NCBI GenBank assembly: GCA_963580285.1 | Contig: OY757019.1 | Coordinates: 64,748,587-64,812,586, forward strand | Reading direction: 5' to 3' | From: Lucinisca nassula | Taxonomy: Eukaryota > Mollusca > Bivalvia > Lucinida > Lucinidae | DNA length: 64,000 nucleotides | In this document: piece after piece, positions 5,917 through 59,391 of the stretch | Position numbering within the stretch: position 1 is the stretch's first letter | Layout: each line of letters begins with the position of its first letter | Translations under genes and position numbers: made by a program | The notes under the pieces: model-generated | Seen by the model: the letters and a program-made list of their open reading frames with translations, nothing else | What the model was told of the DNA's origin: nothing | The model's database searches: none

Positions 5917-6020
5917 TATTATTGAATTTATTAAACTTGTTGAGGAAAAGGGATAAAATGCTCGGCAAAAGCCTCGCATTTTATCCCTTTTCCTCAACTC
6001 GTTTAATAAATTCAATAATA
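5917..6020. repeat. 104-bp palindrome (foldback)
   Basis: The arms 5917-5961 and 5976-6020 are near-perfect reverse complements; the core reads GAGGAAAAGGGATAAAATGC, with a short loop containing GGCAAAAGCC. A diverged relative of the core lies at 35,491-35,560. The surrounding 5640-6060 is AT-rich with no coding signal. It is probably the end or centre of a MITE. Confidence 0.75.
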
Positions 6021-6456: not shown

Positions 6457-7239
6457 CACCGCGTCCAATCGTAACGCCGAATGAGTGGTCGCAACACCGC
6501 ATAAGTGGTCGTTTCACGCCGAATTGTGGTCCTTTTTGATAGATTCGCCGCCATATCTCACTCGAGGAGACACGGTGAGTAGAAACAAAAGTTTATTTGA
6601 AATATACAAACATGTTAATCAACTATGAAAAGTAGCCTATCCGGATCTACATACATTCGTCTAGCTGCCAAATCTTCAGTTGATGAATTTGAATTTCCTG
6701 AATTTGTCAAACACTTCGCGAGATTTGTATTCACCAGTTGTTCATAGATTTGGAGTAAATTTGAAAAGTACGAAGCTTTCTGGTACGAATGCTTATTTGT
6801 GGTATGGCCGAACCTATACAACAATAATCTCGCGAAGTGTTTGACAAATTCAGGAAAGTTTATGCATCAACTGAAGATTTGGCAGTTAGACGAATGTATG
6901 TAGATCCGGATAGGCTACTTTTCATAGTTGATTAACATGTTTTTTATATTTCAAATAAACTTTTGTTTCTGCTCACCGTGTCTCCTCGAGCGAGATATGG
7001 CGGCGAATCTATCAAAAAGGACCACAATTCGGCGTGAAACGACCACTTATGCGGTGTTGCTACTTTTCATAGTTGATTAACATGTTTTTTATATTTCAAA
7101 TAAGCTTTTGTTTCTGCTCACCGTGTCTCCTCGAGCGAGATATGGCGGCGAATCTATCAAAAAGGACCACAATTCGGCGTGAAACGACCACTTATGCGGT
7201 GTTGCGACCACTCATTCGGCGTTACGATTGGACGCGGTG
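6457..7239. mobile_element. Foldback transposon-like element, CAC ends, 5-bp TSD
   Basis: The outer ends are perfect inverted repeats beginning CACCGCGTCCAATCGTAACG (6457 rightward; 7239 leftward). The homology continues inward for several hundred bases, to ~6730 on the left and ~6825 on the right. The right arm holds a ~145-bp tandem duplication (6914-7058 and 7060-7204). TATTT lies on both sides (6452-6456 and 7240-7244). CAC termini and a 5-bp duplication resemble Transib/RAG-like transposons, but the CACWRTG-type heptamer is not matched and no transposase is present. Class II non-autonomous element is well supported; the superfamily is open. Confidence 0.8.
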
Positions 7240-9350: not shown

Positions 9351-9710
9351 ATAAATACCATCAGTGGCATGGGTGATTTATCGAAAAAAAAAAATGTTTA
9401 ATGATAGCAACGATTTAACGGGGGAAAGCCACAGGTTCAAAGCAAGGGTCCAAATCTTGCTGTTCAAGTTTCCATTTAGTCAAACATTTTGTGTCGCGAA
9501 TGTGATTCCCATTTTTATCAGCTATTACTCATTATCTAACGTTTGGAATGTTGTTTACAAAATGAAAATTTTCCCAATGGTTGATATGTTATCGACCTTT
9601 AAATATTGGACCAAATCACCGGAAGTGAGCGAAAAGTATAGCATTTCTGATTGCGTTTTTTTGTTTTTATCAATATTTAAGACCCAGCTTGAAGATGCTA
9701 AAACGACTGA
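9351..9710. other. Open frame without recognised family
   Basis: A 116-codon plus-strand frame (9364-9714) ends just before the first ribozyme repeat. It shows no domain and may be LINE 3' flank or chance. Confidence 0.3.
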
Positions 9711-9855
9711 ATAAAAATAAAAAATGAGTTCCTTTAAGAGCAATGAAAACATTCATAAGAAAGAAGATGAGTCATACTACGTAGTTTCGGCTAATAAATA
9801 AAAATCTAAAATGAGATCCTTTAAGAGCAATGAAAACATTCATAAGAAAGAAGAT

Positions 9856-9901
9856 GGGCCATACTACGTAGTTTCGGCTAATAAAGCCTCATCAGTGACC
9901 C
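9856..9901 (-). ncRNA. Type I hammerhead ribozyme, intact core
   Basis: On the minus strand the order is GGGTCA (stem I), CTGATGA, GGCT-TTATT-AGCC (stem II), GAAA, then CTACGTAG completing a loopless stem III, TA, cleavage, and TGGCCC (stem I). All conserved core bases are present. Stem I has one G-U pair. Stem III is minimal, as in animal retrozymes and PLEs, where dimerisation or tandem RNAs are thought to help. Confidence 0.85.
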
Positions 9902-10238
9902 TGTAATGATCCGACAAAGAAAGCCAGAGGAAACATACTGCAATTTTGCGAATTTCGAATAGGCAGTCGATTCAAAAACTGATATAAATCAAAATTGGGT
10001 CCAAATAATTAAAAACCTGTCTAGAATATGAGTCTAAACGTATAATTTATTTCTGATTTCTCAGAATATTCACGCTGATCTCAAAGGACCAAAAGTAAAA
10101 TATAAACTGCACTATGGTTGATGTACGGGGAGACGTTTTACGGCCGCCACACGGCACAACACCAGCTGCAGTGAAGGCAAATAAAAATCTAAAATGAGAT
10201 CCTTTAAGAGCAATGAAAACATTCATAAGAAAGAAGAT

Positions 10239-10284
10239 GGGTCATACTACGTAGTTTCGGCTAATAAAGCCTCATCAGTGACCC
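10239..10284 (-). ncRNA. Type I hammerhead ribozyme, intact core
   Basis: It has the same architecture as the copy 383 bp upstream, here with a perfect 6-bp stem I (GGGTCA/TGACCC). CTGATGA lies at 10272-10278 and GAAA at 10255-10258 (reverse strand). Predicted cleavage is after the GTA triplet, between plus-strand bases 10244 and 10245. Confidence 0.88.
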
Positions 10285-10395
10285 TGTAATGATCCGACAA
10301 AGAAAGCCAGAGGAAACATACTGCAATTTTGCGAATTTCGAATAGGCAGTCGATTCAAAAACTGATATAAATCAAAATTGGGTCCAAATAATTAA

Positions 10396-10974
10396 AAAAC
10401 TAGAACAAAAAAAGCATGTAAACTAACACAAACTCATTACCTCCTGGGTGGTCAGGCTTATGCTTGTTCCACTTTGGATGATTAGAGTTACATTAATTAG
10501 ATACGAACAATAAATGAAAATAAATAGAAATAAATAATAATAAAAAAAAACCTTAACTAAGACACACAGTGATTTTATAATCATTAGTTGTGAAACTTAG
10601 TGTCACAAAAAAATGTATCAGATATGATACATCGGGCATTAAATCTACAGTATCATATATGATACATGAGAATTAAAATTTAGAAGGTTACTGTGTCTTG
10701 TTTCAACTACATCTATCACAATCTTTTATTTTGTCTAATATTATTGACATGAAATTAAGAGACCTCATACATTATATTTCGATACTTGCTAGCAAACATG
10801 CGCATGCTGCCGTTTGTTTTGTGTATCAAATATGAAACATTGACCATTCATCATGAAAACACACCTAAATAATCTTGACCCCCTTAAACCCCACTTCCGT
10901 GTAGTAAAACTGGGTTTTACCGGCGTATACATCATTTTATCCCTCGACCAATTAGGTTCGGGGGATATTGCAAT
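10396..10974. other. No recognised gene
   Basis: AT-rich sequence with short repeated TATGATACAT motifs around 10,620-10,670. Nothing codes for a recognisable protein. Confidence 0.5.
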
Positions 10975-13828: not shown

Positions 13829-16025
13829 CTAAACTATAATAATAATGAGACTGAGAGCATGATGGGGTAGAGTAGGGAAAAACTTAATTAGTGTAAAATC
13901 GTTACGTTTTTCAAAACACTTAAAAATATATACTGCGAGATTTTGTAATTCTTTTTTATTATTTGACCGTAATAATTCAACTGTCTTTTGCATACTTATT
14001 CTTCTCAGAAAAAAAGGTTTAATTAACTTTTTTTTTTCGTTGCTATACAGCAAGCACTCAAATAAAAAATGGTATTCATCTTCTAACTTCTTACATATCA
14101 TACATTTTCGATCTTCTCTGGGTGTTGGTTGTGGTCTGTTCAATCTACCTGCTTCAATAGCGAGTCTATGAGAAGATAACCTTTATTTTGACATTGCTAC
14201 TCTAAACTTCTTTATTGTTAATAAGGCTGATATTGAAAAGTACAGAAATGTCATGCCAGTTTTGTATGAAATTATCTTTAAGTCTTTGTCTTAAAATAGA
14301 TAAAAATGTTTTAATATTTCCTACCCCCTGGGATAACCAAACTTCAAGAAAACCAAGATTAGACAATGTGTTTTTAATTAATGCTGCCCAATTTTGTAAG
14401 TTTGCACAAATAATTTTCAACCAGTATTTAACTATGCTATATATCCTCTGTGTATAATAATTCGTCCTGCCAAGTTCGCCGTATATAAAATCATTTTGTG
14501 TCGATGTTTTAACACCTAATAATTGTTTACAAAAAAAACATATGCGTTTGCTTGACAAAACCCCCAAACCTCGGACCCATAATTAAAAATAGGAGTCACT
14601 AGTTTGTCAAAGAGTTCAATCCTATGCCTAACTGTAATGCTTGTAAATCTGTAAAGATAACTGTTTAACTTGAAAATTGCTTTAAGTGCCTGTCCGGATA
14701 AGGTCTTCTGACAGTCTGCAAAAGACCCGCTAGTTAAAAAGACAATACCTAAATAGGAAATTGTTCTTACAATAGATAATTCGCTTTGATTATAATAAAT
14801 TTGAGATCTCTTGGTAGAATGCCCCCTCGTCTGAAAACCATGACTTTTGTTTTGAGCGTGTTAACCACTAAACGATACCGATTACAGTATTCTGATAATA
14901 CGTTTAACTCATTTTGAAGTTCGGCGGCTGATTTTGCAAAAAGTATAATATCGTCAGCGTATAATAAAAGAAATATCTTTAGAAAACCTACATCTATACC
15001 GTCACATCCTTTAAGCTGGAATTCTGCTTCGAGATCATTTACATATATAGCAAAGAGGAAGGGAGAGAGGCATTCACCTTGTCGAACACCTAAATTACAC
15101 TCGAAACCCTTACTAATGATATTATTTAACTTCACATGTTGATACATTAAAATTATTATATTTAATATTTTACCTCTTACTCCAAGTTTAATTAATTTAT
15201 ACCACATTATATCGCGGACCACATAGTCGAATGCATTTGTAAAGTCTACAAAGGCACAATAAAGTTTTTCTCCTTTATTTAACAAATGATTAATTATTCC
15301 ATGTAACACGAAAACATTATCAGTTGTGCTCATGGATGCCCTAAACCCTGCCTGCGCTTCAATATATACAGAATATTCTTCAGCCCAATCTGTGAGGCGA
15401 TTATTAAGTATTCTGGTAAAAACTTTCCCAGTGTACTTAGAAGTGTAATCCCTCTGAAATTGCTAACATCATCTAAAGACCCTTTTTGTGTAGCGGAACT
15501 ATGTATCCTTCGGTCCACGACTCAGGAAAGTATTCTAGATCAAATATCTTATTAAAAAGCGTATGCAAATATGATACTAACTCATTACTACCATAGACAA
15601 AGAATTCATTAAGAAATTTGTCTGGTCCCCCGCTTTTCCCATTTTTCAGCTGCCTTATTGCTTTGGTTATTTCTTCTGCTGTAATTGGACAATTTAATTC
15701 GTCGAACATGATCTGAATTTCCGATTTTAAAAAATATTCATTAAATGTATAATGTCTTCGTCGGGTTGAAAAAAGGGTTCATCGGGATTATTTATGGCTT
15801 TGAAATAGTTTTCAAAATCTATTGAAGAAAGTTTTTTTATTTTGGTAACACAAAAGAGTCTTTTAATAGTTTCCAATACTCTTTTGCATTATTAAATTTT
15901 GCTTTAATAAGTTTCAAGCTTTTTTTTTCTTATCTTGTTCAAAGTTAAACTTTCTTACTGCATTTTTATATTCCGTACGATCTTTAACCCTTTTTTGTCG
16001 ATTATCGACAGTCCAATTTTTCTAA
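13829..16025 (-). pseudogene. Non-LTR retrotransposon RT and C-terminus, 5'-truncated
   Basis: From 5' to 3' on the minus strand: an RT N-terminal block KNGKSGGPDKFLNEFF (~15,640); YIVPLHKKG and FRGITLLSTLGK (~15,480); LYCAFVDFTNAFDYV (~15,250, first catalytic Asp); LGVRQGECLSPFLFA (~15,090); LLLYADDIILFAKS (~14,950, YADD active site intact); then a long tail ending in a zinc-knuckle-like motif C-x2-C-x8-H-x4-C at ~14,100. Frame changes occur near 15,520, 15,330 and 14,770. The endonuclease is missing because the copy stops at the ribozyme repeat at 16,026. It resembles the 36-44 kb LINE in RT tail, zinc motif and 3' stem-loop, so the two are probably the same clade (Jockey/CR1 superfamily, not resolved). 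Confidence 0.85.
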
Positions 16026-16424
16026 ATTAAAAATAAGAAATGAGTTCCTTTAAGAGCAATGAAAACAATCATAAGAAAGAAGATGGGTCATACTACGTAG
16101 TTTCGGCTAATAAAGCCTCATCAGTGACCCTGTAATGATCCGGCAAAGAAAGCCAGAATAAACATACTGCAAGTTTATGAATTTCGAATAGGCAGTCGAT
16201 TCAAAGACTGATATAAATCAAAATGGGGTCCAAATAATTAAAAACCTGTCTAGAATATGAGTCTAAACCAATAATTTATTTCCGATTTCTCAGAATATTC
16301 ACGCTGATCTCAAAGGACCAAAAGTAAAATATAAACTGCACTATGGTTGATGTACGGGGAGACGTTTTACGGCCGCCACACGGCACAATACCAGCTGCAG
16401 TGAAGGCAATTAAAAATAAAAAAT
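16026..16424 (-). mobile_element. Retrozyme-like 383-bp repeat, single copy
   Basis: This is a full-length copy in the same orientation as the 9.7-10.4 kb tandem. It is bracketed by near-identical AT-rich sequences, ATTAAAAATAAGAAATGA on the left and ATTAAAAATAAAAAATGA on the right. It abuts the truncated 5' edge of the minus-strand LINE. The bracketing bases are either target duplication or the repeat's own boundary sequence. Confidence 0.8.
16085..16130 (-). ncRNA. Type I hammerhead ribozyme, intact core
   Basis: CTGATGA, the GGCT/AGCC stem II, GAAA, the palindromic ACTACGTAGT stem III and a perfect 6-bp stem I are all present on the minus strand. It is identical to the 10,239 copy through the core. 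Confidence 0.87.
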
Positions 16425-16911
16425 GAGTTCATTCAAACAACTATGAAAAATACTTCTTTTTTTCTGAGCATGCATTATTGAACGCATAATTATTTTCTTT
16501 TTGACAAGGTTTGTTTGCTGTATTTGCAGATGAAGATCTACCAAATAAAGGTGTACACTCCGAGTGCATCAGTGAAGGACAAAACAGAGGCATTAATATC
16601 ATCATCACATGAAGCATTTTGAACTTCATTTGTCAATACAGCAATGCTCTCTTTAAAACTGTCCGATGATATACGTGACTGATATTTTTCTTTATTTTTA
16701 TTATCCCATTTAAAATAACTAAAAGCCGTATTATCATCGTCATAATTATCATCATCTAGTGTGTGATGTCTAAATATTGAGGATAATTACCTCCTTTTAT
16801 GTGCATGACCCGAATATCTTTTCCGATCATTGCTTAATTGAATTTTCATTGGTAAAGTGGGAAAGTAATTCTATATTTACTATACAATAATCTATAAGGC
16901 TGCTACCTTGT
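16425..16911. other. No recognised gene
   Basis: AT-rich sequence between the ribozyme repeat and the truncated PLE, with a few short frames without motifs. Confidence 0.45.
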
Positions 16912-17628: not shown

Positions 17629-18371
17629 CGTAAAATCATTCTTCGATATAAAAAGATTGGGTACAGCATGGATATTATACTTCAGACTGCATGCATGGTA
17701 GTTAACCCAATCACGGTTGGCAACTTTGCTTCCTTCTTTCATTGCAAGCCGGTGGGTCAGGCCTCAGATTCTATGACGGTTCCAGCGTAAAGGCTTATTG
17801 AGAATTAGAGAGATCTAATTCAAGGTAATGTTGGTTGGTGCCTGATGCTCTGTCTCTGGTCGGGCCCATCGGAGTCTAACTGTTGGTTTTCTTTTGCTCC
17901 AGCATTTCAGTGGTTTCTTGCTTTCGAATCCTCACCGTTGTCTCACCTCTGTGGTTCTTTGATTATTTGTGTTCACGGAGATGTTGCACTGATGAGTTAG
18001 GAGACCTTCATGCGGACTGAACAAATTATTTGTCTAAATCGCTACGGAAGTAAGGGCGAGGATTGTGGCCACGTAAAATCGATTTAAGCCCCCCAGTGGA
18101 AATCTTTCCACTGACCGTTCCAAGGCGGCTCTTCTGTGGCGATTTGTTTATGTTGTTGTTTGTTTCTTACTGTGTGTATCATTTGTGTCTTGTTATTTTG
18201 GATGGCCATATGGCTATTTTGTGGGAAAGTAACTGTCCTTATGGCCTTCCTTTGTCTAGGTTTCCATTATGGTCTGGTCGCTTAATGTAAGTGTTTCTTT
18301 CCCTTTTGTGTCTTTGATGGGTGTAGTAAATTAATTGTATCGATTCCTGATCTTTGTTTTACTTCTACTTT
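17629..18371 (+). mobile_element. PLE 3' region
   Basis: This non-coding tail follows the RT and matches 52,190-52,588. Its last ~275 bases (18,097-18,371, ending CTTCTACTTT) recur as separate 5'-truncated fragments at 37,743-38,016 and 59,139-59,391. The recurrence of one shared 3' boundary with differing 5' starts is the pattern of retrotransposition from the 3' end. It breaks a Tc1 frame at its right edge. Confidence 0.7.
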
Positions 18372-23400: not shown

Positions 23401-26400
23401 TCTGAACGGTTTATGAGATATTGGACCTTTTACGAAGAGGAGGGGTTGGGCATGGCACAGGCACATCCCAGGGGGGTCCACAGGTTGGTGTCACTGAATG
23501 TGTCTTATCATAAGAAACAAGAATATATATGGTTTGTGGTGGGGATCTGGATGGTTTCCGAGATATATCGCCTTTTATGAAGTGGAGGGATGGGACATGG
23601 GCCCGACACATCCCAGGGGACCCCTAGTTTTGTGTGACTGAATGACCCATCTTCTTTCTTATGAATGTTTTCATTGCTCTTAAAGGAACTCTTTTTTTAT
23701 TTTTATTATTATAAGAAAAAAATAATATATATGGTTTAGGGGTGGGGATCTGAATGGCTTCTGAGATATATGAAATAGAGGGGCGGGGCATGGCCCCGGC
23801 GCACCCTAGGTTGAAATCACTGAATGCGTCTTATCATAAGGTACAAGAATATGTATGGTTTAGGGGTGGGGATCTGAACGTTTTCTCAGATATTGGGCCT
23901 TTTACGAAGTGGAGGGGTGTGGCAAGTCCCAAGCACATCCTAGGAGATCCCCAGGTTGGTGTCACTGAATGTGTCTTATCATAAGAAACAAGAATATATA
24001 TATGGCTTTGGGATGGGGATCTGGATGGTTTCCGAGATATATCGCCTTTTATGAAGTGGAGGGGTGGGGCATGGCCCCGTCGCACCCTGGGAGACCCCTG
24101 GGTTGGTATCACTGAATGCGTCTTATCATAAGAAACAAGAATATATATGGTTTTGGGGTGGGAATCTAAACGGTTTCTGAGATATCGGGCCTTTTACGAA
24201 GTGGCGGGGTGGGGCATGGGCCCGGCACATCCCAGGGGAACCCTAGTTTGGGGTCACTGAATGCATCTTATCATAAGAAAAAAATAATATATATGGTTTA
24301 GGGGTAGGAATCTGAATGGCTTCTGAGATACTTGAAGTGGAGGGGATTTAAATCACCGAATGCGTCTTATCATAAGGTACAAGAATATGTATGGTTTAGG
24401 GGTGGGGATCTGAACGGTTTCTGAGATATTGGGCCTTTTACGAAGTGGAGGGATAGGGGCAAGGCCCAGGCACATCATAGGGGATCCCCAGGTTGGTGTC
24501 ACTGAATGTGACTTATCATAAGAAACAAGAATACATGTATGTATGGCTTTGGGATGGGGATCTGGATGGTTTCCGAGATATATCGCCTTCATATAAAAAA
24601 GTGGAGGGGTGGGGCATGGGCCCTGCACATCCCAGGGGACCCTCAGGTTGTGTCTTATCATAAGAAACAAGAATATATATATGGTTTTGGGGTGGGGATC
24701 TTGATGGTTTCCGAGATATATCGCCTTCATATAAAAAGTGGAGGGGTTGGGCATGGCCCCGGCGCACACTGGGAGACCCCTAGGTTGGAATCACTGAATG
24801 CGTCTTAGCATAAGAAACAAGAATATATATGTTTTTGGGGTGGGGTCTAAACGCTTTCTGAGATATTGGGCCTTTTACGAAGTGGAGGGGGTGGGGCATG
24901 GGCCCTGAACATCCGCGGGAACCCCCAGGTTGGTGTCACTGAATGCGTCTCATCATAAGAAAAAAGAATATATATGGTTTAGGGGTTGGTATCTGAATGG
25001 CTTCTGAGTTATATGAATTGGAGGGTTGGGGTTCTAGGTCCCGGCGCACCTTAGATTTAAATCACTGCATGCGTCTTATCATAAGGTACAAGAATATGTA
25101 TGGTTCAGGGGTGGGGATCTGAACGGTTTCTGAGATATTGGACCTTTTACGAAGTGGAGGGTGTGGGCATGGCCCAGGCACATCCCAGGGGATCCCCAGG
25201 TTGGTGTCACTGAATATGTCTTATCATAAGAATCAAGAACATATATGTCTTTCGGATGGGGATCTGGATGGTTTCCGAGATATATCACCTTTTATTAAGT
25301 GGTGGGGTGGGGCATGGCCCCGGCGCACCCTGGGAGACCCCCAGGTTGGTATCACTGAATGCGTCTTATCATAAGAAACAAGAATACATATGGTTTTGGG
25401 GTGGGGATCTAAACGATTTCTGAGATATTTGGCCTTTTACGAAGTGGAGGGGGTGGGGCATGGGCCCGGCACATCCCAGGGGACCCCCAGTTTGATGTCA
25501 CTAAATGCGTCTTATCATAAGAAAAAAAAAAAGAATATATATGGTTTAGGGGTGGGGATCTGATATATGAAGTGGAGGGGTGGGGCATGGACTCGGCGCA
25601 CCCTAGGTTGAAATCACTGAATGCGTCTTATTATAAGGTACAAGAATATGTATGGTTTAGGGGTGGGGATCTATACGATTTCTGAGATATTGGGCCTTTT
25701 ACGAAGTGGAGGGGGTGGGGCATGGGCCCGGCACATCCCAGGGTCCCCCAGTTTGGTGTCACTAAATGCGTCTTATCATAAGAAAAAAAGAATATATATG
25801 GTTTAGGGGTGGGGATCTGAAGGGCTTCTGAGATATATGAAGTGGAGGGGCCCCGGCGCACCCGAGGTTGAAATCACTGAATGCGTCTTATCATATGGTA
25901 CAAGAATATGTATGGTTTAGGTGGGGGAATCTGAACGGTTTCTGAGATATTGGGCCTTTTATAGAGTGGTGGTGGTGGGGTAAGGCCCAGGCACATCCTA
26001 GGAGATCCCCAGGTTGGTGCCACTGAATGTGTCTTATTATAAGAAACAAGAATATATATGGCTTTCGGATGGGGATCTGGATGGTTTCCGAGATATATCG
26101 CCTTTTATGAAGTGGAGGGGTGGGGCATGGCCCCGGCGCACCCTGGGAGACCCCTAGTTTGGTATCAGTGAATGCGTCTTATCATAAGAAACAAGAATAC
26201 ATATGGTTTTGGGGTGAGGATCTAAACGGTTTCTGAGATATTGGGCCTTTTACGAAGTGGAGGAGTTGGGGCATGGGCAAAGGCACATCACAGGGAACCC
26301 CTAGTTTGGTGTCACTCATTGCGTCTTATCATAAGGTACAAGAACATGTATGGCTTAGGGGTGGGGATATGAACGGTTTCTGAGATGTTGGGCAGTCAGC

Positions 26401-35485: not shown

Positions 35486-36182
35486 GCTAGTTGAGGAAAA
35501 AGATAAAATGCGAGGCTTTGCCGAGTCTTTTGTACCTTTTCCTTCACGGGTTTTATAGGTTCAATAATGACTGAGCAGGAATGTTTTTGATGTATATACA
35601 TGTATAACAAAATCTTTCAATTCTAATTATAACAGGTTTTGACGCGACGTCACTGCCTTACATCGTCAAAGGAACGTTATGTAACGAGAAGAGGTTTTTG
35701 CGTATAGATCTGTGCAGTATTCAGTTCTATCATATGATAACGACAAGCCGTGGCATTTTGTGTGGCTGTGTGATGGATGGATTTTCAATTTTTATCATCT
35801 CTGTTTTCTTTAAAATTTTACGTTCATGATAGCACTCTAAGGTAAAAATGATTAAATTATTAATTGGTCGCGTCTAGTGCGGACGGGACTTTGCGGATGC
35901 GAGCAGAGAGGGAACAGGGGAGTCTGAGTACCCTGCAGCCTCGCCGTGACCTCCATTTTTCGCTCATGTAATAGGTGGCACTGGTCTCTGTATGGGACTG
36001 GGCATGCGCAAGTGAGGTTTCACGTGACAGAATGCCGAAGTCACGTTTTCGCTTGGTGCTGGTGTCTTCACTTTCAATGATCAGGTACAGTCGTCGACTT
36101 TTTATGTGTATGTCATTAATACAAGAATGCAGTATTCTCAAATTGACAGTAGCACGTCTGCTAACAAGCACTGTTAAAAGAT
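35486..36182. other. Foldback-related repeat and LINE 5' leader
   Basis: GTTGAGGAAAAAGATAAAAT and GCGAGGCTTTGCCGAG at 35,491-35,525 are a diverged relative of the palindrome at 5,917-6,020. The rest, up to the first endonuclease codons at ~36,183, is probably LINE 5' UTR or flank. No gene is recognised. Confidence 0.45.
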
Positions 36183-36621
36183 TGGCCACTGGAATTTAAA
36201 TGGTATCGTGTCTAAACAATACGGAAAAAAACTCGAACACAGAGAAGTATTTACTATGGTAAGGAATTTTGACATATTTGGGGTTAGCGAAACTCACTTG
36301 TTGCCAAATAATTGGAAGCAGATTGACACTTTCAAAGATTTTCACTCTTATAGAAAGCCGGGTAAAAGGCATAATTATGGTAGCGGAGGAATTTCAGTAT
36401 ACATTAAAAACGATATTGTAAAAGGTACTTCAGTTATACACGGCGAATCACCAGATTTTATTTGGGTGTGTCTGAAGAATTCTTTCTTTGATTTAGAAGA
36501 GGATATCTTTATAGGTTTCATATACATTTCGCCAGTAAATTCGAGTGTTAACAACTATCAAGAATATCAGTCTTTTGAACTGTTAGAAAAGGACATTTGC
36601 AAGTTCATTTTTGATTTTTAT
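36183..36621 (+). pseudogene. Second LINE, endonuclease N-terminal half
   Basis: APE-type endonuclease start: GHWNLNGIVSKQYGKKL (Asn block), FDIFGVSETHLLPNNW (catalytic Glu), YGSGGISVYIKND and FIGFIYISPVNSS. The frame is open until the ribozyme repeat inserts at ~36,622. It continues at 37,005. Together with 37.0-38.7 and 42.26-43.9 kb it forms one LINE, related to the minus-strand LINE at 13.8-16.0 kb, whose endonuclease part is missing. Confidence 0.85.
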
Positions 36622-36987
36622 TTGCCTTCACTGTAGCTGGTGTTGTGCCGTGTGGCGGCCGTAAAACGTCTCCCCGTACATCAACCATAGTGCAGTTTAT
36701 ATTTTACTTTTGGTCCATTGAGATTAGCGTGAATATTCTGAGAAATCAGAAATAAATTATTGGTTTAGATTCATATTCTAGACAGGTTTTTAATTATTTG
36801 GACCCTATTTTGATTTATATCAGTTTTTGAATCGACTGCCTATTCGAAATTCGCAAAATTGCAGTATGTTTCCTCTGGCTTTCTTTGCCGGATCATTACA
36901 GGGTCACTAATGAGGCTTTATTAGCCGAAACTACGTAGTATGACCCATCTTCTTTCTTATGAATGTTTTCATTGCTCTTAAAGGAAC
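36622..36987 (+). mobile_element. Retrozyme-like repeat inserted in LINE endonuclease
   Basis: A 366-bp insert flanked by identical 17-bp sequences, TCATTTTTGATTTTTAT (36,605-36,621 and 36,988-37,004). Insert plus one flank equals 383 bp, the tandem unit length. The orientation is opposite to the other copies. It begins TTGCCTTCACTGTAGCTGG and ends CTCTTAAAGGAAC. The flank may be a target duplication or the repeat's own edge, because similar AT-rich sequence borders every copy. Confidence 0.82.
36901..36946 (+). ncRNA. Hammerhead ribozyme with mutated core
   Basis: All stems match the intact copies, but the core reads CTAATGA instead of CTGATGA (36,906-36,912). The changed base corresponds to G5, an essential core residue, so this copy is predicted inactive. 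Confidence 0.8.
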
Positions 36988-37004
36988 TCATTTTTGATTT
37001 TTAT

Positions 37005-37742
37005 ATTCAAATCTAAGGGCAAAATATTGCTAATGGGGGATCTTAATAGCAGGGTTGGTGGCCTTCCAGATTTCAATGTCAGTGATGACGACAAATATAC
37101 CCCCGTGCCAGACGTCTACAAGGCCGACGAGGGTGATTCTTGTTGTAATCGCAGAAATAAGGATAGCTTTTATACAAATGAATATGGTAACCGATTAACT
37201 GAACTGTGTATTGCAGCAGAACTCAGAATATTAAATGGTAGAACTCTAGGGGATTTAGACGGCAAATTAACTTGCCATAAATGGAATGGTTCCTCAGTAG
37301 TAGATTATGGGATAGTCCAAAATGACATATTTTACATCATTGATTATTTTAAGGTACATGACTTTTTAGGTCATTTGTCAGACCACTGTTCTATTTCATT
37401 GGAACTCAAGTGCAAACTAAAGAACAGAACAAATAGATGCTTTAAATAAGCCCAGTTTTAAATGGGATAGTCAGTCAGACTTGGTTACAGATCAACATTG
37501 TCATTAAACTATATATGTGAAAAAATAAATAAAATTTGTAACATGCGTTCAGATATTGGTATAAGCGTTGGTGAAATGACAGAGGAAACTAATAATATAT
37601 TATTAATTGCTGCAAATCGGGCATTTGTGCAACGCAAATGTTCAAGAAAACACAAGCAAAAGAAAAGAAAATGGTTCGATAAAGACTGTTTTAATTTAAG
37701 AAAAGAAGTTATTAAATTGGGCAGAAAATTGTGTAGAAATAG
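37005..37742 (+). pseudogene. Second LINE, endonuclease C-terminal half and linker
   Basis: GKILLMGDLNSRVGG (catalytic Asp/Asn block, ~37,020), GNRLTELCIAAELRILNGR, TCHKWNGSSVVDYGI and LGHLSDHCSISLEL (terminal S-D-H block, ~37,370) complete the endonuclease. A frameshift near 37,445 leads into a basic linker, KHKQKKRKWFDKDCFNLRKE. It is cut at ~37,743 by a PLE 3' fragment. Confidence 0.85.
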
Positions 37743-38016
37743 GGTGGAAATCTTCCACTGACCGTTCCAAGGCGGCTCTTCCGTGGCGATTTATTTATGT
37801 TGTTGTTTGTTACTTACTGTGTGTATCACTTGTGTCTTTTAATTTTGGATGGCCATATGGCCATTTTGTGGGAAAGTAACTGTCCATATGGCCTTCCTTT
37901 GTTTAGGTTTCCATTATGGTCTGGTCGCTTAATGTTTGTATTTCTTTCCCTTTGATGTCTTTTATGGATGGAGTAAGTTAATTGTATCAATTCCTGATCT
38001 TTGTTTTACTTCTACT
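37743..38016 (+). mobile_element. 5'-truncated PLE 3' end
   Basis: Matches the last ~275 bases of the PLE at 18,097-18,371 and 59,139-59,391, ending at the same CTTCTACTTTA boundary. It has no coding capacity and splits the LINE linker. Confidence 0.7.
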
Positions 38017-46843: not shown

Positions 46844-46897
46844 GCTGGAGATCCTAAGGAAGGGCTCCACAATACAGGTGGAAATATAAAAAGAGAA

Positions 46898-47040
46898 ATC
46901 GGAAACACCACAACACGTTACATTTTGTTTTATTCCTCAAGCGCTTTCAGTAGTTAAACATTATCAAGAGGTTTTGATGTTTCACTACTGAAAGCGCTTG
47001 AGGAATAAAACAAAATGTAACGTGTTGTAGTGTTTCCGAT
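46898..47040. mobile_element. Hairpin element, 57-bp arms, between AT repeats
   Basis: The arms 46,898-46,954 and 46,984-47,040 are complementary with one mismatch around a 29-base loop. They include CCTCAAGCGCTTTCAGTAGT. It is bracketed by A and TA tracts (46,801-46,842 and 47,047-47,061). It interrupts an array unit and encodes nothing. Probably a foldback MITE with TA-rich target. Confidence 0.75.
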
Positions 47041-49143
47041 TTTTCTTTATATATATATATATAGTTTAGGGGTGGGGATCTGAATGGCTTCTGAGACATA
47101 TGAAGTGGAGGGGTGGGGCATGGCCCCGGCGCACCCTAGGGTTGAAATCACTGAATGCGTCTTATCATAAGGTACACGAATATGTATGGTTTAGGGGTGG
47201 GGATCTGAACGGTTTCTGATTCCTTTTACGAAGTGGAGGGGGTGGGGCAAGCCCCATGCACATCCCAGGGGATCCCCAGGTTGGTGTCACTGAATGTGTC
47301 TTATCATAAGAAACAAGAATATATGTGGCTTTGGGATGGGGATCAGGATGGTTTCCGAGATGTATCGCCTTTTATGAAGTTGAGGGGTAGGGCATGGCGC
47401 CGGCGCACCCTGGGAGACCCCTAGGTTGGTATCACTGAATGCGTCTTATCATGAGAAACAAGAATACATATGGTTTTGGGGTGGGGATCTAAACGGTTTC
47501 TGAGATATTGGGCCTTTTTACGAAGTGGGGGGGTTGGGGCATGGAACCGGCACATTCCAGGGGACCACCAGTTTGGTGTCACTAAATGCGTCTTATCAAA
47601 AGAAAAAAAAAAAGAATATATATGGTTTAGGGGTGGGGATCTGAATGGCTTCTGAGATATATGAAGTGGAGGGATGGGGCATGGCCCCGGCGCACCCTAG
47701 GTTGAAATCACTGAATGTCTTATCATAAGGTACAAGAATATGTATGGTTTAGGGGTGGGGATCTGAACGGTTTCTGATTCCTTTTACGAAGTGGAGGGGA
47801 TGGGGCAAGGCCCATGCACATCCCAGGGGATCCCCAGGTTGGTGTCACTGAATGTGTCTTATCATAAGAAACAAGAATATATGTGGCTTTGGGATGGGGA
47901 TCAGGATGGTTTCCGAGATGTATCGCCTTTTATGAAGTTGAGGGGTAGGGCATGGCCCCGGCGCACCCTGGGAGACCCCTAGGTTGGTATCACTGAATGC
48001 GTCTTATCATGAGAAACAAGAATACATATGGTTTTGGGGTGGGGATCTAAACGGTTTCTGAGATATTGGGCCTTTTACGAAGTGGAGGGGTTGGGGCATG
48101 GAACCGGCACATCCCAGGGGACCACCAGTTTGGTGTCACTAAATGCGTCTTATCATAAGAAAAAAAGAATATATATGGTTTAGGGGTGGGGATCTGAATG
48201 GCCCAGGCACATCCCATGGGGTCTCCAGGTTTGTGTCACTGAATGTGTTTTATCATAAGAAACAAGAATATATATGGCTTTGGGTGGGGATCTGGATGGT
48301 TTCCGAGATATATCGCCTTTTATGAAGTGGAGGGTCGGGGCATGGCCCCGGCGCACCCAGGGATACCCCTAGGTTGGTATCACTGAATGCGTCTTATACT
48401 AAAGAAACACGAATATATATTGTTTTGGGATGGGAATCTAAATAATTTCTGAGATATTGGGCCTTTTACGAAGTGGAGGGGGGTGGGGCATGGTCCCGGC
48501 ACATCCCAGGGGACCACCAGTTATGTGTCACTGAATGCGTCTTATCATAAGAAAAAAAGAATATATATGGTTTAGGGGTGGGGATCTGAATGGCTTCTGA
48601 GATATATGAAGTGGAGGGGTTGGGCATGGCCCCGACGCACCCTAGGTTGAAATCACTGAATGCGTCTTATCATAACGTACAAGAATATGTATGGTTTAGG
48701 GTTGGGGATCTGAACGGTTTCTGAGATATTGGGCCTTTTACGAAGTGGATGGGGTGGGGCAAGGCCCAGGCATATCCTAGGGGATCCCCAGGTTGGTGTC
48801 ACTGAATGTGTCTTATTATTAGAAACAAGAATATATATGGCTTTGGGATGGGGATCTGGATGGTTTCCGAGATATATCGCCTTTTATGAAGTGGAGGGGT
48901 GGGTCATGGCCTGAATGAGTCTTATACTAAAGAAACAAGAATATATATGGTTTTGGGGTGGGGATCTAAACGGTTTCTGAGATATTGGGCCTTTTACGAA
49001 GTGGAGGGGGTTGGGCATGGGCCAGGCAAATCCCAGGGGAACCCTCGTTTGGAGTTTCTGAATGCGTCTTATCATAAGAAAAAAATAATATATATTGTTT
49101 AGGGGCGATGATCTGAATGGCTTCTGAGATATATGAAGTGGAG

Positions 49144-55022: not shown

Positions 55023-55537
55023 TCCTCTAGATATTTTAAATGGACTTTTGTACCATATTTTATTCGTTAAGTCTTTGTGCATTGTTCAGCAGATGACCGC
55101 TAGACAATGAGGATCCTGATCAGAAAATAACAGATATGTCCATTGTTTGCATCCTTGATGTCTAAGCCCAAGTTATGGGTGTTGGGCCTGCTTGGGTCAT
55201 CATTTCAACACTACATTCAACTCTAGCTGATCTCAAACTCCTGCTTAAAAACCTCATTTCTTGCTGCCATTTTAAGGTTATAAGTTTGATCAAATTTAAA
55301 CATATATAGATTTCTGATGCTCATGATGTACCAACTTACTAACCAACGATATGGACTTTTACTTGTCATTGTACATGTATTTGTTGTTTTGTTATTCTCT
55401 TTATTTTTCTTTCTTTTATGTATTCATGGTAACGGTACTCAAACCTAGTATTTACATATTAATGTTTAATCATCAAATATCCTTGTGTTCAGCCAAGCTG
55501 CCCTATTTACTAAAATCTTTGTACACTATCTCTCCGA

Positions 55538-58500
55538 ATGGGGATTGACATTGAAACTTATAGGGCAGCTATTGGGATATTCTATACTTCTTCCCACAAA
55601 TCATTGAATTTACCTAAGAAGGCGAATAATTTTAACCTTCGTTTTCATTTTTACTGTACTCTGGGTATATTTGCCATATTGTTATTAGGCTGTTATTTAA
55701 AAAACGACAAGTTTACATTTTATAAAATAATTTTGCTGATGATTTGTATGGATGTACACCCAAACCCAGGCCCGAACAGTACCAGTACAATATGCACATT
55801 AGACATCATGCATCTTAATACTCGGAGCATACGTAACAAAATAAATTATATCTCTAATTTGTCTGACTCATACCAAATTTTATGTTTCTCTGAAACACAT
55901 TTGGACGATTCTGTTGACACTAGCTCACTGCAGTTAGATGGTTTTGATGTGCCTGTTAGGAGAGACAGAACGCATAATGGTGGTGGTGTCATGATTTATT
56001 TATCAAGTATGTTGAGTTACAAACGACGCCCCGACTTAGAAAACCAACGTTTAGAAATCATTTGGACTGAAGTGAAATTAAAATCCCAAATTTTACTTAT
56101 TTGCTGTTTTTATCGCAGCGATTTCAGTGTCTCGCAGTCTGTTTTCATAAACGAAATACAACCTTCCATTGAACAAGCGTTAGATTATACTCCAAACGTC
56201 ATTCTATTGGGCGACTTAAATATAGATTTTATAAACCTTACAAACCATGAACTGCATGACTGCTTAACAATCTACAATCTTAGTAACATAATCAAGGAAC
56301 CGACTCGAATTGTAGGTAATTCCAGAACTTTAATTGATCCTATCATCGTAAGTGACGGATGTCAGATACTCGATTCTGGCACATTTGATGTCGATCACAA
56401 TATCAGTGATCATAAGGCTACGTATGTTAGTATTAAAACCGAACTATCCTTTGGCCGCCCCTATTACAGAAATATATGGAACTATAAGAATGCTGATTTT
56501 GAACAATTAAACCATAAAATTATTCAGTTTAATTGGGATAATATAATTAACCATGAAACTACTGTTGACGAAGCATGTTTTAATTTTACCGAAACATACA
56601 TCAATTTATGTAAATCATGTATACCACGTAAAAAAGTTTTAATCCGACCGACAGATAAACCATGGTTCACGTCAGAACTCAGATACAATATACGAGTAAG
56701 AGACAGATTGCGCCAAAAAGCATTAAAGTCAAGCAATACAAGAGACAAGGATTGCTACAAGAAACAAAGAAATAAGGTTAATAATATGAAGAAGTATGCT
56801 AAGGAAAATTATATGAACAATTACGAAGATATGATATTAAACAAAAATTGTGGTAGTAAAACATTTTGGCAGCTTATGGGCAGATTAGTAGATAAACAAC
56901 CAAAAACTAGTACTCTTCCTCCATTACACAACTCGAATGATATTTTTGCATTTACTGATGATGAAAAGGCTACTTTACTCAACGATTATTTTTGCACAAT
57001 ATCTTCGCTTGACGACTCAAATATCGAACTCCCAGATTTTAATAAAAGAACAGACTCAAGTCTAACTAGCATAACTATTAACACGTCCGAAATTATAGAT
57101 GTTTTAAGTAGTCTTAAGCTAAACAAAGCATCGGGCCCTGACGGCATCAGTCACCGTATGCTAAAATATACATCTAAAACAATTGCAGTACCTTTATGCA
57201 AACTATTTAATATATCACTTCGTTCAAAATCGTTTCCAGCTTTATGGAAACTTGCACATGTCATGCCCATTTTTAAAAAAGGAGATCGGTCGGTTGTGAG
57301 CAATTATAGACCAATATCACTTGTAAGCTGCGTTGGTAAAGCATTCGAAAGAGTTGTATTTAAATATGTATATAATCACCTTATCACTAATTCACTTATA
57401 TATCAATACCAGTCAGGATTTCTACCCGGTCACTCTACTGTACATCACCTGATTGAACTGACTCACCAAACATGTTTAGCGCTAGAAAAATATGAAACCA
57501 ATTGCCAAATTTTTTGCGATATTTCTAAAGCGTTCGATCGGGTCTGGCACCGAGGTTTATTACTGAAATTGGAAAGTTATGGAATTGATGGGCACATGTT
57601 ACACTGGTTTGAAGATTATCTAAACAACAGACGACAAAAAGTTTTAGTTAATGAAATATGTTCATCTGAGAAACTTTTATCGGCAGGTGTCCCGCAAGGA
57701 TCCGTTCTCGGTCCACTGTTATTTTTAATTTATATTAATGACATTTCAGATGATTTAAATGGCTTAGCCAGACTGTTTGCAGATGATACTTCCTTGAGTT
57801 ACTCGTCCGCAAACCTACAGCAGATCGAAATTGTATTGAATGAAGATTTACGCAAACTTAGTGAGTGGGCAAAGAAATGGCAGATACTCTTCAACCCGCT
57901 TAAAACAGAAGTCATGTTAATTTCGAACATTTTCCATGATGATAACTTTGAATTGACCATGGATGGCACAATCTTGAAAATTGTTGAAATTCATAAACAC
58001 TTAGGAGTAAACCTATCATCAACAAATAAATGGTCCAAACACATCGACATAATAATAGAATCATCATCTAAGCAAGTATCATTTTTAAGGAAAATTAAAT
58101 ATCGTTTTTCTAAAGACACTCTTAATACCCTATATTGCTCGTACATACGGCCGCTTTTAGAGTATGCCAGTGAAGTTTGGGATGGCTGTACCAAAACGGA
58201 TGCAAATAGACTGGAACAGGTCCAATTAAATGCAGCCAGAATAGTTACCGGCCTACCAATTTTTGCTTCTCTTAACTCACTTTACGCAGAAACTGGATGG
58301 GAAACCTTATCAGTGAGAAGAGTAAATAAGAAACTTTCATTAATGTACAAAATAGTAAATCATGAGGCTCCAAGTTATCTCATTAATCTCATGCCTAATC
58401 GAGTAAATGAACAAACACCATACCAGTTAAGAAATAATCAAAACTTCGATGTCCCCTTTTCTCGATTATGTTCATTTGAAAATTCCTTCTTTCCATCCAC

Positions 58501-58916
58501 TTTACGACTATGGAATGGTCTAGACCTAGAAACAAGAAATTCATCTTCGCTGATGGAGTTTAAAAACCATACAAGAAAAACCCACAAGCTACGTTTTTGT
58601 CGGACAAAGAACACACGAAATATCCCTAGTACGAATCAAACACAACTGCAGCAGCTTAAATGCCGATCTAAACCGAGTTAATATTGTCCCGAGTCCATTT
58701 TGTACCTGTGGACCAAACATTGAAAATGCTTATCATTACTTTCTTAACTGTCCATTGTACCTGATTCCCAGAAACCGATTAATAACGTCGCTACCCCAGG
58801 TGGATATCAACATTGAATTGCTTATTAATGGTAATGAATTCTTAAATCCAGAAACAAATCGTCAAATACGTAAGTCTGTGCTACAATTTGTAAAGGAAAC
58901 GGGAAGATTTAAATGA
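55538..58916 (+). pseudogene. CR1/L2-like LINE ORF2 (EN-RT), one C-terminal frameshift
   Basis: A 1,047-codon open frame (55,538-58,681), the longest and best preserved gene here. Residues 41-70 are hydrophobic; 72-79 read DVHPNPGP, a 2A-like motif. The APE endonuclease spans ~85-300: HLNTRS, CFSETHLD (~120), GDLNIDF (~226), SDHKATYVS (~291). RT blocks are LNKASGPDGIS (~531), YRPISLVSC, ISKAFDRVWH (~661), GVPQGSVLGPLLFLIYINDI (~717) and LFADDTSLSYSS (~747, FADD active site intact), then IRPLLEYASEVWDG. Near 58,600 the frame slips: the expected C-terminus (NCSSLNADLNRV, a C-x-C...H-x4-C motif) continues one frame over to a stop at 58,914-58,916. Only this lesion is visible, so it is young. The 3' end at ~59,136 has AATAAA and short CTTAAT repeats. 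It lies inside PLE 3' sequence. Confidence 0.92.
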
Positions 58917-59138
58917 ATCACATCCATATGTTTACATAGGTTTTTGTGCCGTTACCACTTGTCCTACTGTTGGTTTTGTATCTCATTTTTATTATTTTCA
59001 AAACATTCCTGTCACACCGTTGTACCATATGTGCTGTTATCTGTTAATGTTTAGGGAGAGGATTTACTAATGTTGTATAACTTGTATCCAATCCCATTGT
59101 GTTTCATGCAATAAAATATGTTTAATCTTAATCTTCCA

Positions 59139-59391
59139 TGGGGTTCTTCTGTGGCGGTTTATTTATGGTTTTGTTTGTTACTTACTGTGTGTATCACTTG
59201 TGTCTTATTATTTTGGATGGCCATATGGCCATTTTGTGGGAAAGTAACTGTCCTTATGGCCTTCCTTTGTTCAGGTTTCCATCATGGTCTGGTCGCTTAA
59301 TGTTTATATTTCTTTCCCTTTGGTGTCTTTGATGGGTGGAGTAAGTTAATTGTATCGATTCCTGATCTTTGTTTTACTTCTACTTTATACT
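59139..59391 (+). mobile_element. PLE 3' end
   Basis: Terminal PLE sequence (GGCGGTTTATTTATGG... to CTTCTACTTTA) that abuts the array. It is either the 3' remainder of the 50.36-kb PLE or an independent truncated copy. Confidence 0.65.

Follow-up and report, generated by a model that had tools for sequence, protein, structure and literature searches.

A hammerhead retrozyme family in Lucinisca nassula with a near-constant 3' end, suggesting reverse transcription from one fixed start

Hammerhead repeats in the window

The sequence analysed here, referred to as the window, is the 64,000 nt stretch C12:64748587-64812586 of the 2.93-Gb L. nassula genome. It contains a minus-strand tandem array of a 383 bp unit along with dispersed copies of the same repeat, of which those at 36605-37004 and 23642-23707 are additional to the ones recorded in the initial annotation. 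Unit positions are numbered from the first base past the hammerhead cut; the features are as follows.

9710-10401, minus: retrozyme array of 1.8 units
10401-10245, minus: partial unit of the tandem
10244-9862, minus: full unit, cut to cut, 383 nt
9861-9796, minus: tail of the next unit
9798-9710, minus: internally deleted copy at the tandem end (hammerhead 3' half 9798-9775, tail 9774-9710), about 296 bp absent
10239-10284, minus: type I hammerhead, complete, with the cut predicted between 10245 and 10244
9856-9901, minus: second complete hammerhead, with a single G-U wobble in stem I and the cut predicted between 9862 and 9861
9775-9798, minus: hammerhead 3' half lacking the catalytic 5' half, in the internally deleted copy
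16025-16449, minus: second retrozyme insertion, 1.1 units, with the shared 3' end at position 66
16085-16130, minus: third complete hammerhead
23642-23707, plus: 66 bp tail-only retrozyme insertion in a 145 bp satellite, with the shared 3' end at position 65
36178-37449, plus: LINE endonuclease frames flanking a retrozyme (Exo_endo_phos 36178-36636, Exo_endo_phos_2 36982-37449)
36605-37004, plus: third retrozyme insertion, 1.04 units, splitting the LINE endonuclease frame, with the shared 3' end at position 64
36901-36946, plus: hammerhead with the core CTAATGA in place of CTGATGA, predicted inactive

The tandem had been placed at 9711-10395; it is present, with its extent corrected to 9710-10401. 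Its 692 bp are made up of about 221, 383 and 88 bp, the last including the deleted copy. The longest start-to-stop frame wholly within it is 59 aa, two longer listed frames crossing its edge, and the 383 bp unit is non-coding, with a GC content of 37%.

Two complete minus-strand hammerheads had been reported exactly 383 bp apart, and both are found, at 10239-10284 and 9856-9901; likewise, the intact core noted near 16,085 proved to belong to the complete hammerhead at 16085-16130. Stem I is GGGUCA/UGACCC, such that the six base pairs originally ascribed to both tandem hammerheads hold for the 10239 copy, whereas the 9856 copy has its single wobble there. Stem II (GGCU/AGCC) closes a loop of five bases, and the core, CUGAUGA...GAA, is intact. 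Stem III, first described as palindromic and loopless, is better interpreted as a helix of three pairs (A15.1-U16.1, C-G and U-A) capped by an ACGU tetraloop. As the 10 nt ACUACGUAGU at this stem is palindromic, two ribozymes could pair with one another via stem III. The cut presumably follows GUA, as predicted from hammerhead rules.

The pattern CTGATGA-N4-24-CGAAA has three matches in the window, all on the minus strand (9872-9895, 10255-10278 and 16101-16124), compared with the 0.12 predicted from shuffled sequence. Genome-wide, the exact 24 nt core matches 22,825 times (11,383 + 11,442) and the exact tail 21,320 times (10,667 + 10,653), while the reversed control of each gives none; together, these counts exclude chance. 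The core is intact in 90 of 98 hammerhead units. Copies are dispersed as monomers to multimers: 40 of 83 arrays are shorter than one unit, 32 have one to two units, seven have two to three and four have at least three, the longest reaching 5.2 units. This dispersal as mono- to pentamers, in addition to the unit length, type I topology, low GC content and lack of a long open reading frame, supports the earlier description of the repeat as retrozyme-like.

The initial annotation had staked that description on covariance-model matches at 9,856, 10,239 and 16,085. Taken literally, the outcome is adverse: an Rfam search of the window returned no hammerhead at the gathering score, and relaxed limits recovered RF00008 at 28 bits (gathering score 48.5; E 0.085) at 9866-9920 and 10249-10303, with no match to the hammerhead at 16085. 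However, the search is uninformative for these ribozymes, because with E values up to 1 it also missed others from the same genome, namely the hammerheads of two retrozyme families in locus L072, those in L049 and that of a Penelope element in L105. Rfam was consequently set aside as an arbiter. The core and stems I-III can form at the three window sites; in folding predictions, the minimum-energy folds of isolated 62 nt pieces keep most of stem I and stem II, with stem III replaced by core pairing, under an energy model that ignores tertiary contacts. Folded as a circle, the 383 nt unit is predicted to be more stable (-91.7 kcal/mol) than 100 shuffled sequences, which average -75.2 kcal/mol (z -3.6).

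Several other repeats are found in the window. The 145 bp satellite occurs in many blocks between 20823 and 62140, with a block of around 5.8 kb apparently repeated (24.3-28.1 and 30.2-34.0 kb). Near-perfect long inverted repeats, resembling MITEs, lie at 1258-1410, 5931-6006, 6639-6913 and 46865-47071, and are scored by Rfam as microRNA families below the gathering score. A LINE-like repeat whose 3' end, CTTCTACTTT, is fixed and whose 5' ends vary is present at 17968-18368, 37744-38015 and 59134-59383; in locus L089, one such repeat has apparently been inserted into a retrozyme, perhaps with duplication of TTT. The long LINE frame at 55514-58681 extends for 1055 aa between stops and has endonuclease and reverse transcriptase domains.

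Ends, lengths and insertion sites of the arrays

The new element of this analysis is the manner in which retrozyme copies end. Stretches fetched around listed sites on C1, together with the window, yielded 101 called copies, ten of which were dropped as being shorter than 50 bp or no more than 85% identical. Of the 91 arrays kept, 63 contain one of 99 fetched tail sites (100 having been listed) and the other 28 were for the most part selected on an intact core or encountered incidentally. The sample covers the window and the initial 13 Mb of a single chromosome and, having been selected by exact patterns, favours young copies.

In 83 of the 91 arrays, the 3' end falls between unit positions 60 and 71, a single 12 nt window, with 62 of these 83 at positions 65-67. 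The densest 12 nt window for 5' ends holds 9 of 91, and the maximum in uniform simulation was 14; an apparent cluster of 5' ends within the hammerhead (10 of 57 within 20 nt) was not significant (p 0.07). The near-constant stop, around 66 nt past the cut, suggests that RNA circles were copied by a reverse transcriptase whose starting point is fixed. Against this explanation, eight arrays end elsewhere, at positions 54, 75, 85, 210, 270, 271, 271 and 356; one of those ending at 271 (L089) runs into a LINE, and that ending at 210 (L049) into seven CCCTAA repeats. In the portions of the literature searched, no earlier report of a fixed 3' end in animal retrozymes was found.

The L049 array (700-1720 of that locus; C1:94892-95660) is an observation in its own right. 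It is a two-unit retrozyme joined directly to approximately seven telomere-type repeats and, as its 5' end is at position 209, its span is very close to two turns. One possible origin is a cDNA for which a telomeric end served as primer.

Array lengths are compatible with a memoryless drop-off. Among the arrays selected by their tails, the 57 with 3' ends at 60-71 have excess lengths compatible with an exponential with a mean of about 430 nt past the first 52 (KS p 0.20), the 52 nt offset being a consequence of the pattern used for selection; 57, 23, 9, 3, 1 and 1 of these arrays exceed zero to five turns, respectively. Comparable units are present in 25 of the 83 arrays of at least 100 bp, and in all 25 there is greater likeness inside than between arrays: units diverge by 1.7% within arrays (mean of array means) and 4.9% between them, whilst the fraction of non-majority variants shared is 0.721 within and 0.045 between. 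One array in L027 has five identical units with the same three non-majority letters. Such identity is expected from the repeated copying of one template, and fits both a circle and a homogeneous linear multimer.

For four insertions, the empty site could be seen by comparison by eye: these are the copy at 36605 in the LINE endonuclease frame, that at around 23642 in the 145 bp satellite, and two in a LINE 3' region (L009 and L040). Either up to 3 bp are common to both sides, resembling microhomology, or a few bases have been lost. Across 81 copies, the best flank-to-flank matches are distributed as those of mismatched flank pairs, with no target-site duplication above chance.

Template and candidate enzyme

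We think it fairly probable that this repeat is a non-autonomous retrozyme of the metazoan type, copied by a reverse transcriptase that starts at a fixed internal site and circles the RNA template. With the order of steps taken from published retrozyme work and Penelope biochemistry (PMC7229834, PMC11167929), we infer that tandem copies would be transcribed and the RNA cut into 383 nt monomers by hammerheads acting singly or paired via the palindromic stem III, the monomers then being closed into circles by a host ligase. A reverse transcriptase from another element would bind the tail motif past the cut and nick DNA; copying would begin at one fixed internal site, at about unit position 64-68, and the enzyme would run round the circle until a random drop-off, with a chance of about 0.4 for each further turn. 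The combination of a fixed start and a random drop-off would result in inserts of 0.15 to 5.2 units with a common 3' end and varied 5' ends, and the 5' end of the insert would be joined to target DNA without duplication.

Confidence in this explanation is lowered by a minimum-energy fold that is not that of a hammerhead and by one shared flank. Loci L027 (C1:5152144) and L028 (C1:5193608), 41 kb apart, have 300 bp 3' flanks that are 99.7% identical, but different 5' flanks and ends; this may reflect duplication or transduction.

Cleaved linear monomers were rejected as the main template, since run-off at position 1 would be expected, yet only 2 of 91 arrays start at position 383, 1 or 2. Short inserts starting at the cut do exist: that at 23642 in the window (66 bp) starts no more than 1 nt from it, and another is found in L082 (60 bp). 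Throughout the genome, a pattern for starts at position 1 has 95 matches and a start-4 control 30, beside the 21,320 exact tails, both patterns detecting only starts at which all three flanking letters are unlike the unit (approximately 42%, were flanks random). Among the 95 matches listed, the same three flanking letters recur in single loci and flanks of ACT or AGT resemble hammerhead variants, whilst 12 of the 30 listed control matches read GAC, resembling a one-base insertion; both counts are therefore discounted. Starts at the cut may be in two- to threefold excess, though this is tiny in comparison with the number of tails, and in most copies reverse transcription apparently continued across the cut site, whether uncut or religated.

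A reading we regard as rather unlikely is that a linear multimer, transcribed from an existing tandem locus and left uncut, serves as the template, the enzyme still starting internally at a fixed site. Purified Penelope with a mutated ribozyme inserts unchanged, and unprocessed RNA was judged the dominant substrate in the available text of PMC11167929. Homogeneous arrays could derive from uncut multimers of loci that were already homogeneous, and as the source arrays are so, within-array similarity alone is compatible with such a template; the common 3' flank and differing 5' flanks of L027 and L028 are also in its favour. However, array lengths have no upper step, and a LINE 3' end that abuts the retrozyme accounts for the four arrays that have an identical 5' flank in common (the position-269 starts in L028 and L089 adjoin a LINE 3' end). 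L028, L029 and L082 are similar on both flanks, and so look like insertions into one repeat. The retention of the core in 90 of 98 units also counts against uncut templates, although descent from active masters predicts the same.

Mobilisation of a SINE-like element by a LINE appears improbable. LINEs are common in this genome, and a fixed 3' end with 5' truncation is also typical of LINE-driven insertion. Nevertheless, the 81 copies have no target-site duplication above chance, and multi-turn arrays require a start internal to a circle or multimer. The one abundant LINE family compared has a different 3' end, its tail being matched as well by 955 (family 1) and 938 (family 2, below) of 1000 shuffles, and it was rejected as the partner on this basis. 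Finally, the suggestion of an ordinary satellite spread by unequal crossing-over, with the ribozyme as a passenger, is disfavoured and very improbable: the unit is tandem and the window rich in satellites, but copies are dispersed, 40 of 83 are below one unit, 83 of 91 arrays have a common end, and copies are found inserted within a LINE frame, the 3' region of a LINE and a different satellite.

A second retrozyme family has a 261 bp unit and hammerheads with C as H17 (L072 1118-1378, L005, L018, L026 and L028); these are intact in L026, L028 and L072, while the core in L005 has a G-to-A change. One pair of stem II has undergone a compensated change from T-A to C-G, and the tetraloop has changed from ACGT to AGCT, keeping the palindrome. 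The tail of this family resembles that of family 1 (1 of 1000 shuffles as good), as does a third tail, from L026 (0 of 1000), around which no frame longer than 82 aa is found on its strand within 5.9 kb. The tail motif reads TGTNTTC...TTG...AAAGG.

A GIY-YIG search gave at least 138 matches with 150 of 746 candidates scored, some in frames of 763-820 aa. Of 13 Penelope stretches, one (L105) contains a hammerhead within the portion inspected. With a 321 bp query from this locus, and 40 of 664 candidates scored, 11 of 46 matches end at query position 204, which is +98 past its cut; 27 end at 247, maybe just the junction of L105 itself, and one starts at 107, the first base past the cut. A Penelope-like enzyme is the best candidate, the hammerhead Penelope of this genome also having a recurrent 3' end. 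The more specific proposal, that a Penelope-type enzyme acts in trans on circular RNA, starting at a dedicated site about 66 nt past the cut, making an exponentially distributed number of turns straight into the genome and recognising a tail motif common to at least two retrozyme families, we hold to be an even prospect.

The Penelope-like machinery invoked in the initial annotation gains better grounds from the anatomy of the ends, but no tail homology proves the partner. The retrozyme tail has no similarity to that of the hammerhead Penelope in L105 (1429 of 2000 shuffles as good) and no match to that of L099, and both were rejected on this evidence. L099 itself (C5:145336400-145341900) has Penelope-like tandem copies 4.03 kb apart, identical over 1474 bp and with two long frames per unit, and looks to have been recently active. 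A further argument against Penelope as the partner is that both Penelope families with sampled 3' ends, in neither of which a hammerhead was found, insert into (TA)n repeats (6 of 6 copies), whereas just 1 of 83 retrozyme arrays has (TA)4 or more no further than 20 nt from its 3' junction. One of these Penelope families has two alternative end sites, separated by 41 nt (2 + 1 copies), like the optional Penelope tail. The other, the L100 type, ends after TTTTTGATTTT in two of three copies, and this 11-mer is also found at the retrozyme 3' end; in a post hoc comparison, 24 of 5000 shuffles were as good for the last 30 nt, and 317 of 5000 for the whole tail. The sharing is a lead only; those elements enter (TA)n.

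Comparison with known retrozymes and Penelope-like elements

These results bear on the identity of the enzyme that mobilises animal retrozymes, and on the status of the circle as a true intermediate. A 2020 review, in the part available, describes retrozyme repeats as being without a conserved motif useful for deducing the partner (PMC7761336). The 91 arrays offer a handle in the fixed start, the tail motif of two retrozyme families, the memoryless length law and the per-array identity, each of which is testable in any retrozyme-bearing genome; the start site, moreover, tells the biochemist which pair of RNA and reverse transcriptase to mix.

Like the LTR retrozymes of plants, as outlined in PMC7761336, the L. 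nassula repeat appears to be a non-autonomous retroelement processed by a ribozyme. Those elements are described there as having type III hammerheads, LTRs, a tRNA primer site, a polypurine tract and 4 bp duplications, whereas the present repeat has a type I hammerhead and shows no target duplication above chance. The amphibian satellite-2 and axolotl retrozymes described in sections of PMC7229834 are closer, sharing a type I hammerhead whose short stem III ends in a tetraloop, which in the first axolotl family is palindromic, as it is here; likened by description, their units are about 330 and 350 bp, in another host.

Metazoan retrozymes are reported to undergo self-cleavage, ligation by RtcB and circularisation (PMC7229834, in part). 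The small, low-GC repeat of the metazoan non-LTR type (about 170-400 bp) has its counterpart in the 383 bp, 37% GC unit, and the likeness extends, within the account given in PMC7229834, to the short tandem arrangement, type I hammerhead, unit size, thousands of copies and presence of autonomous Penelope elements in the same genome. The nearest family by description is that of Mytilus galloprovincialis, with repeats of 350-390 bp (Cervera and de la Pena 2020, PMC7229834); the available text of that paper gives no fixed 3' end comparable to that found here around 66 nt past the cut. It describes target duplications as optional, and longer than 4 bp when present, such that membership is compatible with the absence of any above chance in L. 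nassula.

Penelope-like elements encode a reverse transcriptase and GIY-YIG endonuclease, unlike the non-coding 383 bp retrozyme unit. In the portions of PMC11167929 consulted, the purified Penelope enzyme starts reverse transcription internally, 111-118 bp into the ORF, while the ribozyme cuts 26 bp in, and its targets are AT-rich. The retrozymes of L. nassula resemble such pLTR-hammerhead Penelope elements in having an internal start downstream of the hammerhead, judged here from genomic ends, and, on the descriptions available in PMC11167929 and PMC3846280, Penelope-like elements also occur as tandem and 5'-truncated copies, with duplications that are not constant and 5' junctions reported to form by microhomology.
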